Of a DNA stretch of 33,553 nt, positions 3,331 to 31,059 are shown one piece after another. The stretch's first letter is position 1; each line of letters opens with the position of its first letter. The notes below the pieces were generated by a model. The model saw only the letters and a program-made list of their open reading frames with translations. It made no database searches and was not told where the DNA came from. Source of the DNA: Terriglobia bacterium (lineage in GTDB: Bacteria; Acidobacteriota; Terriglobia; 20CM-2-55-15); the NCBI GenBank assembly GCA_036496425.1, contig DASXLG010000379.1, positions 1 through 33,553 of the forward strand, in the 5' to 3' direction. A program made the translations under genes and the position numbers.

Positions 3331-3420
3331 GCGCGCCCTGCGTGGCGCACCAAAAAAAAGGGCCGTGGAGATAAATCCACGGGCCGAATCGAGAACCCCG
3401 GCAACTCTGCGACCGGTTAG
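3331..3420 (-). repeat. 90-bp dispersed repeat, copy A
   Basis: This segment aligns without gaps to 7733-7822, with 5 mismatches over 90 bases (about 94% identity). On the minus strand the order is a CCGG-bounded small stem, a long GC-rich hairpin, a run of eight T and a second short GC stem. Both copies lie downstream of a minus-strand gene (ADOP here, the fibronectin-like gene in copy B). Flanking sequence is not shared, so the unit appears to have been duplicated on its own. Confidence 0.85.
3352..3385 (-). terminator. Intrinsic terminator downstream of ADOP
   Basis: Read on the minus strand, a 10-bp stem (arms 3376-3385 and 3360-3369, loop of 6, one G-G mismatch) is followed by eight T (3359-3352). 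It lies about 135 bases after the ADOP stop codon and is part of repeat copy A. Confidence 0.75.
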
Positions 3421-7660: not shown

Positions 7661-7710
7661 GAAGCGGATTCGGTTCACGACGGAGTGCTGCGATGAGCCA
7701 AGTCCTACCC
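7661..7710 (+). pseudogene. 50-bp relic of the single-subunit RNA polymerase 5' region
   Basis: It is identical to 14861-14910 at 48 of 50 positions. In the full locus this stretch encodes the polymerase segment EADSVHDGALRWAKSYP; here one difference turns the TGG tryptophan codon into TGA. Similarity stops abruptly on both sides. It is probably a leftover from another copy of the polymerase gene, or from recombination between copies. Confidence 0.65.
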
Positions 7711-7732: not shown

Positions 7733-7822
7733 GCGCGCCATGCGTGGCGCACCAAAAAAAAGGCCCGTGGATATAAATCCACGGGCCGAATCGAAACCCC
7801 CGGCAACTCTGCGACCGGTTAG
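7733..7822 (-). repeat. 90-bp dispersed repeat, copy B
   Basis: Partner of 3331-3420 with 5 mismatches in 90 bases. This copy has a perfect 10-bp hairpin and also a GCGCCA/TGGCGC stem at its far end. Its near edge includes the stop codon of the fibronectin-like gene (7819-7821), so the module abuts the 3' end of that gene exactly. Confidence 0.85.
7754..7787 (-). terminator. Intrinsic terminator of the fibronectin-like gene
   Basis: On the minus strand a perfect 10-bp stem (7778-7787 with 7762-7771, loop TTTATA) is followed by eight T (7761-7754). It begins about 30 bases after the stop codon. Confidence 0.85.
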
Positions 7823-8469
7823 GCGCAGATAAACGTCGTCGGAGTGCTCCAATCATTGAATCCCAACTTACCCAACGCGTGAACCTGGAACTGGTACGTT
7901 CCAGCCGGCGTCAAGCCAGTCAGGATGAGTTTGCGAGGGCTGATCAGCGTGAGCGTGGTCCAGGGACCCGGCGCTCCGCCGTTCGCCACCAGGGCATAAC
8001 GGAGTTCGTAAGCGATTGCTCCACTCAGAGCAGCAATCTTTACGGCAATCTCTCCGCTATTTGGACCGCGATCGATCCATTGGAAGCTCGAATCTGCCAG
8101 CGGCTGCGGCGCAGTCTTAGTTCTGACAACTGCGATGAAACCACTGGTATTGAAGATTGCGGCATCGTCGTTGCACGCGCTCTCGGCGAAATGTCCGAGA
8201 AGCGTATACATCTTGATCACCGCGACACGCTGCTTGTCCTTCGCGCTGATGGCCTTCTTGCCTCCATCTTGCGCATCGGTCAACAACGTGCCGAAGCTAT
8301 CCACTCCCTGCTCGTAAGCCGCCATATCTACTGACGGGTTCGGATATGCCGGGTTATTCTTCATACCCTTCAGCACAGCATTGAACTGCGTGAGGGCATC
8401 CGAATCCGACACATCGTTAAACGCCAGCTTGGCCTTGATCTTGTTGGCAGTCGAATGTGCATTTCTCAT
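7819..8469 (-). CDS. Small fibronectin type III-like protein
   Basis: The 216-residue product starts at ATG 8469, which has a strong AGGAGG 9 bases upstream; the in-frame ATG at 8514 lies before this site. The N-terminal half (MRNAHSTANKIKAKLAFNDV) is helical and has no obvious signal peptide. The C-terminal ~90 residues form a fibronectin III-like sandwich with the closing LTGLTPAGTYQFQVHALGKL and GFNDWSTPTTFICA. I know no defined function. The gene is followed by repeat copy B, which supplies its terminator. It is probably transcribed on its own, since 287 bases separate it from the deacetylase gene. Confidence 0.8.
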   Translation of the reverse strand: MRNAHSTANKIKAKLAFNDVSDSDALTQFNAVLKGMKNNPAYPNPSVDMAAYEQGVDSFGTLLTDAQDGGKKAISAKDKQRVAVIKMYTLLGHFAESACNDDAAIFNTSGFIAVVRTKTAPQPLADSSFQWIDRGPNSGEIAVKIAALSGAIAYELRYALVANGGAPGPWTTLTLISPRKLILTGLTPAGTYQFQVHALGKLGFNDWSTPTTFICA

Positions 8470-8522
8470 GTTTCCTTCCTCCTTTCTTAGATTTGCTAAT
8501 TCCAGCCGCGCCAATAAAGGTC

Positions 8523-8553
8523 GAGAGACATGCGGCCGGATTCCCTGTCTCTC
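8523..8553 (-). promoter_or_regulatory. Perfect 8-bp inverted repeat upstream of the fibronectin-like gene
   Basis: GAGAGACA (8523-8530) and TGTCTCTC (8546-8553) flank a 15-base GC-rich spacer, about 55-85 bases before the start codon. It could be an operator or a 5' leader hairpin. The rest of the 8470-8756 gap contains only an imperfect purine/pyrimidine fold-back around 8640-8690. Confidence 0.4.
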
Positions 8554-8756
8554 ACCCTTTGGAACATTGGTACAAAAACGGCCTCAACGAACAGCAATTT
8601 CTGCACCTTTCTTCCAAGAGGGTCGGTTATCTGTCATTAATCCTTCTATCTCTTTTTCTATAGGAGAAAGAAAGAAGGAGAGAGAGGCTGAAGAAACAAT
8701 ATGCGAGTGGCCGTCACGGCTGTCAGCCGCGTCACGGTGCGCCGCACGGAGGTGGC

Positions 8757-14528: not shown

Positions 14529-14659
14529 ACGTTAGGCCGTTATACGGACAATCGCATCGCATGGTAAACCGGCCATGACCGTGACAATCTGACAATTGCC
14601 GTCGAGAAGTCCGGACTTCGCACCGTAAACCTGCTCCAGGCGCAACGCATTACAGGAAT

Positions 14660-14820
14660 CTGGCTTCCCCGCCAATTCGTTCCATGTTTTTGGCGGGAAG
14701 CTGGCTGCCCCACAAGTTCATTCCATGTTTTTGAAAAAAAGCCGGCTTCCCCGTAAATTCGTTCCATGTTTTTTCCAAAAAGCCGGCTTGCTTGCAATTT
14801 AGTCCCATGTAAAATGCAAA
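14660..14820 (+). repeat. Four imperfect ~40-bp tandem repeats upstream of the RNA polymerase gene
   Basis: Units are at 14660-14699, 14700-14740, 14741-14781 and 14782-14820. Each carries a version of GCYGGCTTCCCC, then AATTCGTTCCATGTTTTT. The palindrome AAGCCGGCTT marks the boundaries at 14739-14748 and 14780-14789. Units 1-3 are closest; the fourth has diverged. The array ends 4 bases before the polymerase frame. The remainder of the gap (14529-14659) shows nothing I can name. Confidence 0.8.
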
Positions 14821-14824
14821 CACC

Positions 14825-16867
14825 TTGGATAACGACTACATCGAGCGACAAAAGAAGCTGGAAGCGGATTCGGTTCACGACGGAGCGCTGCGATGGGCCA
14901 AGTCCTACCCCTACCACCAGGCGACGGATACCCAGCCGATCCGCTATCTGTTGGAACATAGTCAGAAAGCGCTGTCGGACGCGATTCGTGCCCAGCAACT
15001 CGAGTTCAAGAGCCCGGGACGGAAGAAACTGCCGGCTATTGGATAGGCCTATCAGCGCTCAATCCCGACCCGTTGGCTCTGATCACTCTTGGCACGATGT
15101 TCAACTGCATCAGCCGATGGGAATTTAATGAAGGGACGGCGCCGGGCCTTGGTTGGGTTTCAGGCGAAGTCGGCGGGCGTTGCCAGCTTGAACGAAAGTA
15201 TGACTGCGAGCAAAAGCGCGAGATCGATCTGGCCGAGGAATTGCTGGCGCGGAATCGCAGCGGGCATGCCCGGCAGCGCGCTAAGGAGGCGGCACAAAAC
15301 GTCGACGATCCGAACTATTGGAAGGAGAATCGCCTCGCGATTCACCTCGGAAAAGAACTGATCTACCTGGCCGTTCGCCACGCGCAATTGGACGGCGCCC
15401 CAATCTTCCAGTTGGTTACCGTACGGGAGAGCAGCACCCAGAAGACGCCAAGAACGCTCGCGCTTACCGACAAAGCCAGCGACTGGATCGCCGAGCACCA
15501 GCCGGACCTGCAGTCCTTGCTCACTCCGGTTCACCGGCCGATGATTGTTCAGCCGAAACCGTGGACGTCGTTTTCCGATGGCGGCTACCTTGTGACTCGA
15601 CTCCCGCTGACGAAGCGTGAACCGAATAAACGAACGCAGCGGCAGCTGAAAGAGGCCGACCTGACGCCAGTCTTCTCGGCCGTCAATGCCATGCAGAATA
15701 CGGCGTTCCGGATCAATGATCCGATCCGCCTCGACATGAATGAAGGCTGGGATACCAAGGGTCCGTTTTTCGGGTTGGAAAAACTTCGCCGCGGGGAACT
15801 CCCGCCGCGGCTGCCCGACGACGCCGATCCGGACCAGTTCGACGACAGCATGCGCGAGCGCTCGGACGTCCACCATGTGAACCACCGGATTAAAGGCGCG
15901 CAGCAGGTCATCGCATCCCGCTTAGCCATGGCGGAACAGTTCCGCGAGTACCCGCGCATCTATTATCCGCATGGACGGCACGTGTAACGGCTATCAGCAC
16001 CTCAGTGCCATGGGCCGCGATCCGATTGGCGGCCGGGCAACGAACCTGGTGCCGGGAATGAAACCCCAAGATATTTATCGGGATGTTGCCGAGGCCGCCG
16101 GTTGGCTTATCGCCGAGGCCGCCGCGGATCCCCGCTCAGCCCATCACTTCTGGGCGCGGCAACTGCTTGGGAAAATCGATCGCGAGGTCGCCAAGGATGC
16201 GACGATGACCAAACCTTACGGTGCCAGGCGCGGCACGATCTACAAGAAACTGCTCCAGACCGAGGCCATCAAGAGCTGCATCAATCCACCCGAGTGCGCC
16301 CGTTATCTGGCTAAAGTATTGGATGAAAGCATTCCCAAGGTCGCCATCGAAGCGGGGAAGATTATGACCTGGATGCGGCAGGTCGCTTCCATTATCGGCA
16401 AGGCGAACCGGCCCATGGCGTGGACCACACCAACTGATTTTTATGTCGCTCATGGCCCGCGGGAGCCGAAAAAAATCCGAGTCACGACATCCGATTGCAC
16501 CCTCACCCTGTTTGCAACTGATGAAAAGCGGAAGATCGACTTGCGGAAGCTGGTGGACGGCATCGTCGCTCACTTCGTCCATTCCATGGACGCGGCGCAC
16601 ATGATGCTGACGACCCATCGGCTGGTCGCCGAAGGTCTCTGTCATTTCGCGATGGTCCACGACAGCTTTGGCGTCCATGCCTGCGACGTCGACCTGCTCC
16701 ATCGCGTTCTGCGCGAGGAATTCGTTCGCATCTATTCTCAACCCATCCTGCAGAAGTTTCTGGACGAACAGAGGCAAGCCCATCCCGACCTGGATTTCCC
16801 GGAACCTCCCAGCCCCGGAGACCTCGATATCCGCCAGGTCCTCGACTCCCCTTATTTCTTTGCGTAA
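14825..16867 (+). pseudogene. T7-type single-subunit RNA polymerase, frameshifted and internally deleted
   Basis: Three consecutive frames give a T7-like polymerase. (1) From TTG 14825: IERQKKLEADSVHDGALRWA and on to SPGRKKLPAI. (2) The frame shifts near 15020-15043 and continues LNPDPLALITLGTMFNCISR, PKPWTSFSDGGYLVTRLPL and AVNAMQNTAFRIND, reaching IYYPH at 15970. (3) From 15971: MDGTCNGYQHLSAMG to LDIRQVLDSPYFFA, a T7-like C-terminal end. In segment 3, Asp2, Arg71, Lys75, Tyr83-Gly84, His230 and Asp231 match T7 Asp537, Arg627, Lys631, Tyr639-Gly640, His811 and Asp812. Between IYYPH and DGTCNG about 115 residues (T7 ~420-535, including the DWRGR motif) are missing and the frame changes, so the enzyme cannot be functional as read. 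Total ~675 residues against 883 in T7. No phage structural genes flank it. Confidence 0.9.
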
Positions 16868-18107: not shown

Positions 18108-18171
18108 AGGCCCTGGAAATTCAGGTGCACCTTTGTGGCCAACGCTTCTGAGCAAAGAGCGGGAAGGAACC

Positions 18172-18250
18172 ATTGCACCATTGCATCATTGGAAGTTTTT
18201 GCAGTTCTAAATTTGAAATGCAGAAACGTCTGATGATGCAATGGTGCGAT
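18172..18250. repeat. 79-bp fold-back element, copy 1
   Basis: The ends are 18-bp near-perfect inverted repeats: ATTGCACCATTGCATCAT (18172-18189) and ATGATGCAATGGTGCGAT (18233-18250). The interior is also partly self-complementary, and short GGAAGGAA/TTCCTTTCC flanks extend the palindrome. The reverse complement of 30963-31041 aligns over the whole length with only a few mismatches. It lies in the gap after the ABC permease gene. No coding capacity. Confidence 0.85.
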
Positions 18251-18267
18251 GATTCCTTTCCGAGGCG

Positions 18268-30948: not shown

Positions 30949-30962
30949 GAGGAAGGGAACCT

Positions 30963-31041
30963 ATTGCTCCATTGCATCATTAGAGGTTTCTGCATTTTAA
31001 ATTTAGAACTGCAAAAACGTCCAATGATGCAATGGTGCAAT
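30963..31041. repeat. 79-bp fold-back element, copy 2 (inverted)
   Basis: Arms ATTGCTCCATTGCATCAT (30963-30980) and ATGATGCAATGGTGCAAT (31024-31041) enclose a partly self-complementary interior. Its reverse complement matches copy 1. The purine/pyrimidine flanks GGAGGAAGGGA and CCCCTTCCCTCC extend the fold to about 30948-31057, including the end of the TPR stop codon region. It sits between the convergent TPR and XRE genes and could terminate both. Confidence 0.85.
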
Positions 31042-31059
31042 AAATCCCCTTCCCTCCTT

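Follow-up and report, generated by a model that had tools for sequence, protein, structure and literature searches.

Chromosomal T7-type RNA polymerase genes divergently paired with an FN3-like protein family in an acidobacterial genome

The window, i.e. the whole 33,553-nt stretch analysed here (contig C379 of a draft Terriglobia genome of 6.16 Mb in 407 contigs), carries the remains of a T7-type single-subunit RNA polymerase (ssRNAP) gene that has several relatives in the same genome. These relatives are under selection and are paired divergently with genes of a protein family termed FNP; polymerases and partners have diverged discordantly, and no phage structural genes are found among the tested neighbours. 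We lean, by a modest degree, to the view that the window preserves, in decayed form, one of multiple chromosomal copies of a unit in which a domesticated phage-type polymerase privately transcribes its FNP unit.

The polymerase remnant in the window

Two features of the window belong to the polymerase gene:

14825-16867, plus strand: ssRNAP pseudogene, identified by Pfam, by a PF00940 genome search and by alignment with paralogues and T7 RNAP
7661-7710, plus strand: 50-bp duplicate of polymerase codons, a direct repeat 96% identical to 14861-14910

A sequence-only reading had assembled a T7-like polymerase from three frames, and Pfam together with the paralogue alignment confirms it: the plus-strand frames encode the N-terminus (14825-15046), the middle (15073-15987; RPOL_N, E 3.5e-13) and the C-terminus (15971-16867; RNA_pol, E 2.7e-70). 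Using the complete C203 paralogue as reference, the frame changes near 15043, and a deletion near 15960 has removed about 120 residues, corresponding to ~385-504 of the paralogue and taking in the DWRGR-equivalent motif, with the junction between 'IYYPH' and 'MDGTCNGY'; the loss of about 115 residues including DWRGR and the single 5' frameshift read earlier agree with this. The window copy has no intact reading frame. The catalytic residues had been called conserved, and alignment with T7 RNAP and the paralogues shows that they are: both the C-terminal frame of the window and the complete copies retain the equivalents of T7 Asp537, Lys631, Tyr639, His811 and Asp812. Motif A of the window (MDGTCNGYQHLSAM) aligns with T7 D537, motif B (KDATMTKPYG) with K631/Y639 and motif C (MVHDSFGVHA) with H811/D812, and the window protein ends in YFFA (FAFA in T7).

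The segment at 7661-7710, taken before as a second piece of the gene, is real, but we rejected it as an independent gene copy, since 96% identity is far above the 55-70% protein identity found among true paralogues; it is best explained as a local duplication.

Polymerase genes in the genome and in relatives

Searching the source genome with PF00940 gave 10 matches on 8 contigs, including long open frames on C203, C231, C138, C277 and C177, fragments on C390 and a weak match on C353. Besides the window copy there are at least five ssRNAP genes: three complete ones (801-803 aa on C203, 802 aa on C138 and 760 aa on C277), one that is complete across a contig overlap (the C177 gene is interrupted by the contig end, where the final 141 bp exactly match the end of C216, the contig that bears the missing N-terminus), and one without its N-terminus (C231). 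A further 5' remnant is found on C159, and on C390 a polymerase remnant lies in pieces (L016, 3582-4548 and 8356-8789), its middle part displaced by ~4 kb from the ends. The earlier suggestion of more than one copy in this genome was thus right, by virtue of genes and remnants on further contigs rather than of 7661-7710.

The chromosomal polymerases form one clade (support 100/99) with the copy of the congeneric genome G004 nested inside; joins of long branches outside this clade are unsure. Pairwise dN/dS of the polymerases is mostly 0.17-0.33 (at dS 0.1-1.6), showing purifying selection on the family, and their GC3 matches that of host genes. Decay, as first read from the sequence, therefore describes the broken window gene but not the family as a whole, which is alive, with three complete copies, and a fourth that is complete across a contig overlap, under purifying selection.

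Presence of the ssRNAP gene is patchy within the genus. Only one of the 61 relatives (G004) has it, 396 genomes of the phylum contain one unrelated copy besides the source genome, and in a collection of 85,000 species two distant relatives were found besides the G004 contig, which belongs to an Acidobacteria gp5 MAG. An acidobacterium of another family (G201; L093, 4149-7896) has an ssRNAP frame of 1063 residues in which an internal segment is duplicated, neighboured by a large SMC-like ATPase gene and by a fragment resembling an integrase. A Nitrospina MAG (L050, 7500-11775) has a distant ssRNAP that is preceded by type I restriction-modification-like genes and followed by a tyrosine-integrase-like gene; phage structural genes are not obvious within the 18 kb seen. 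A literature search found no paper on chromosomal ssRNAPs in Acidobacteria.

The FNP family and its pairing with the polymerase

FNP is the only constant neighbour of the intact polymerase copies. The window has these FNP-related features:

7822-8469, minus strand: intact FNP gene (216 aa; fn3 E 7.6e-05), its product sharing 50% identity with the FNP partner of the C203 polymerase
7733-7822, minus strand: FNP terminator region (hairpin plus T-run), from sequence repeat comparison

FNP proteins have ~215-247 residues and a C-terminal FN3-like domain. They resemble bacterial FN3-domain proteins (PF00041) in their C-terminal ~60-90 residues (Pfam fn3 is matched by 41 of 45 family members) and differ from them by a helical N-terminal region of ~120 residues, for which no convincing family match was found in Pfam, NCBIfam or PADLOC; a single-sequence structure model reached a pLDDT of 35. 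There are 53 FNP matches in the source genome, 28 in G004, 4-8 in three other congeners and none in one congener, and a sample of 247 genomes of the phylum outside the genus gave none, so FNP is, as sampled within Acidobacteriota genomes, a genus-restricted family. The two genomes richest in FNP are the two with ssRNAP. About 45 of the 53 FNP genes have no polymerase, and FNP expression thus does not in general require it. FNP pairwise dN/dS is also below 1. A copy of the FNP stop-and-terminator region, 94% identical and lacking an FNP gene, is found at 3331-3420 of the window.

The polymerase is divergent from an FNP gene in five of the five copies with known 5' flank (C203, C138, C277, C231 and C216/C177; the G004 contig ends at the polymerase N-terminus). 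All pairs in which both 5' ends survive are divergent and 120-300 bp apart, with 124-150 bp between the genes on C203, C138 and C277, and the C216/C177 pair is divergent across the exact 141-bp contig overlap. Both 5' ends are deleted on C231, and what remains of its FNP still adjoins the polymerase divergently. Traces of the same arrangement are seen on C188, where ~45 nt of a polymerase start remain, divergent from the FNP there, and on C159, where an FNP-type terminator is fused to the polymerase 5' remnant, as expected if the intervening FNP was deleted. The FNP gene and the polymerase remnant of the window are oriented as in the intact pairs, with 6.3 kb between them.

Partners have not always diverged together. 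Divergence is parallel between C277 and C177/C216 (polymerase dS 0.68, FNP dS 0.56), whereas between C203 and C138 the polymerases are 69% identical (dS 0.77) and the FNPs 34% identical (dS >2), and between C203 and C231 the FNPs are 74% and the polymerases ~57-60% identical. Because of these discordant divergences, and because the RNAP-linked FNPs are spread over three clades of the FNP tree, we conclude that polymerase and FNP have been re-paired with their geometry kept. Such re-pairing argues against passive co-inheritance of one relic, although FNP gene conversion could mimic it.

Phage origin or mobile element

The polymerase matches PHROG 414 (E 3.5e-199), and a complete paralogue aligns to T7 RNAP residues 35-883 (E 4e-88). 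We infer that the founding copy was of phage origin. Full-length homology, the catalytic residues and the C-terminal FFA foot are shared with the T7-like phage RNAPs (Autographiviridae and relatives; PF00940/PF14700, PHROG 414), from which the present enzymes differ in being chromosomal, in having several copies with no phage genes alongside, in their FNP partner and in their separate clade. Mitochondrial-type ssRNAPs are organelle enzymes of phage ancestry that were likewise kept by the cell; they share the core homology (PDB matches, E ~1e-86), whereas the enzymes described here are encoded in several copies on a bacterial chromosome, have an N-terminus of phage length and serve no organelle.

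That every copy is a residue of an integrated T7-like phage is very improbable in our judgement, even though the enzyme is phage-type and distant relatives lie on podovirus-like contigs, one of them beside an integrase-like gene (L052; L051). The closest phage polymerases are only ~30-36% identical, compared with 55-69% among the chromosomal copies, and the neighbours of the polymerase copies are chromosomal or toxin-antitoxin-like genes. A PHROGs scan of ten neighbour proteins gave no structural, packaging or integrase match, and ORF surveys of the polymerase loci revealed no capsid, tail, terminase, integrase or replication genes alongside, bearing out the earlier statement that phage genes are absent nearby. 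FNP had no match in phages, plasmids, IMG/VR or 31 viral contigs encoding related polymerases, and was rejected as a phage gene. Neighbours and relatives together led us to reject the present loci as prophages: intact copies lie among ordinary chromosomal genes, not only inside complete prophages, and the podovirus remnant that had been offered as an alternative is unsupported for the present-day loci, although the polymerase is ultimately phage-type.

Another reading is a selfish mobile unit, whose polymerase would serve the spread of its own element, with FNP as cargo or maintenance factor and a host or trans-acting recombinase moving it. Several dispersed copies with unrelated flanks, many of them decayed, would fit, as would the patchy presence in the genus and an apparently empty site. 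A tRNA-Pro(CGG) gene is found 67 bp away from the C277 pair, and in three congeneric genomes (G001, G004 and G005) the orthologous tRNA gene lies beside the same conserved gene without polymerase or FNP. This site is weak evidence, since the DNA on the far side of the tRNA gene varies in all of the genomes. We regard a selfish unit as unlikely, since neither shared ends nor a constant transposase, integrase, other recombinase or replication gene turned up for the polymerase copies, partners were swapped between FNP clades, and FNP spreads mostly without polymerase. The previously suggested element carrying its own polymerase holds as far as a constant two-gene unit and the apparently empty site go, but no mobility gene or element ends turned up. 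PADLOC models gave no meaningful match for polymerase or FNP.

Phased repeat arrays

Upstream of FNP genes, 48% of 900-bp stretches are rich in short repeats, compared with 4% downstream and 6% of random stretches (p 2.6e-6), and by a stricter phase test an array is found within 1.4 kb upstream in 32 of 57 FNP genes and downstream in 1 of 57 (the thresholds for repeat-richness and for the phase test were chosen after the arrays had been seen). The repeat periods are ~20/21, 40/41, 80/82 and 120/123 bp across loci with quite different repeat sequences; among FNP genes of G000, G004, G003 and G002, the ~20.5/41-bp period is universal and the core differs at nearly every locus. Array sequence is clearly common only to FNPs at least 79% identical. 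Examples are found at L036, L094, L128, L137, L013 (11190-11720), L017 (9165-9440) and in the window:

14657-14810, no strand assigned: 41-nt-period repeat array, immediately 5' of the polymerase remnant

With repeats phased two helical turns apart, the arrays suggest a protein that binds along one side of the helix. The stretch directly upstream is free of arrays in all RNAP-linked FNPs. Elsewhere, arrays are found past or alongside the 3' end of the polymerase or polymerase remnant (C138 and C353) and next to the polymerase 5' remnant (the window and C159), and C277 has one strong array away from both FNP and polymerase.

Arrays near both FNP genes and polymerase pieces, with scattered fragments of both genes nearby, could also mean that array-bearing FNP loci are recombination hot spots that repeatedly trapped phage polymerase genes, the adjacency being incidental. 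This is quite improbable, we think, given that the polymerases form one clade under purifying selection, always lie divergent from FNP at a distance of 120-300 bp in pairs with both 5' ends preserved, and have no other phage gene type beside the tested pairs.

The window also contains two near-palindromes of ~100 bp (18160-18262 and 30951-31053), ~90% alike; together with another copy in L011 they represent a miniature dispersed repeat.

Candidate control elements

Two candidate elements lie upstream of the window FNP gene:

8608-8634, minus strand: 27-bp element ACAGATANNNNACSCTMTTGGAAKAAA, common to the C203 and C138 intact pairs
8502-8553, minus strand: FNP 5' leader with a potential H-type pseudoknot (GAGAGACA/TGTCTCTC plus CCGGCCGC/GCGGCTGG), assessed by shuffles and pair counts

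Allowing up to 3 mismatches, the 27-bp element is found at exactly three sites in the 6.16 Mb genome (C203, C138 and the window FNP; control 0), with 24 nt separating it from the downstream polymerase ATG in the two intact pairs that have it. This fixed distance suggests that it controls the polymerase gene rather than FNP, and with just three sites we rejected it as a general FNP promoter. Read toward the polymerase, the candidate element ends in CCAATAGGG/CCAATAGCG, an end that loosely recalls the T7 promoter, as a resemblance only. A whole-genome search placed it neither in the C277 and C216/C177 pairs nor at solo FNP genes; since it is missing from the other two pairs, every lineage of the polymerase would require a site of its own.

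The FNP leader of the window is 96% identical to that of C203. Leaders able to form the predicted pseudoknot are found in L011, L094, L097, L104-L106, L108, L125, L126, L133, L143 and L144; in several sequences the pseudoknot beats all per-sequence shuffles, and the pairing survives base changes (CCAGCCGC/GCGGCTGG in L133, GCCAC/GTGGC in L106). Column-wise covariation in a MAFFT alignment is only suggestive, and an Rfam search of the leaders found no family. Upstream of an FNP gene of G004 (L126), two Acido-Lenti-1 RNAs lie in inverted orientation (335-380 and 472-517).

A possible, though not probable, generalization is that each FNP copy is insulated by private control, mostly through locus-specific arrays whose operator-like sites recur every two helical turns (~20.5 bp) and in some cases through a private phage-type RNAP. 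In that case, domesticated ssRNAPs would amount to dedicated transcription machinery within a bacterial chromosome.

Proposed model and implications

In the domesticated-polymerase reading that we prefer, the polymerase would have entered the ancestor of the genus from a phage-type source and would have been retained because it was useful to the host-resident FNP unit. It would most likely transcribe its partner, itself or both from a putative private promoter in the 120-300-bp intergenic region, so that this transcription would depend neither on the host polymerase nor on other FNP copies; we infer the private transcription of FNP from gene arrangement and sequence. The units would then have multiplied, swapped partners and decayed either way, with the polymerase lost and FNP kept or the reverse. 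As for the window, ~6.3 kb of other DNA would have split the pair, and the polymerase would have broken while FNP stayed intact.

Phages, organelles and some plasmids are known to have single-subunit RNA polymerases, and we know of no earlier description of regulation by a dedicated domesticated ssRNAP in a bacterial chromosome. The FNP genes with their private arrays phased at 20.5 bp are a second, separate puzzle, which is directly testable. Several selected chromosomal ssRNAPs with a constant partner would represent an early stage of domestication, comparable to the origin of the mitochondrial polymerase, and would be a natural source of orthogonal polymerase-promoter pairs.
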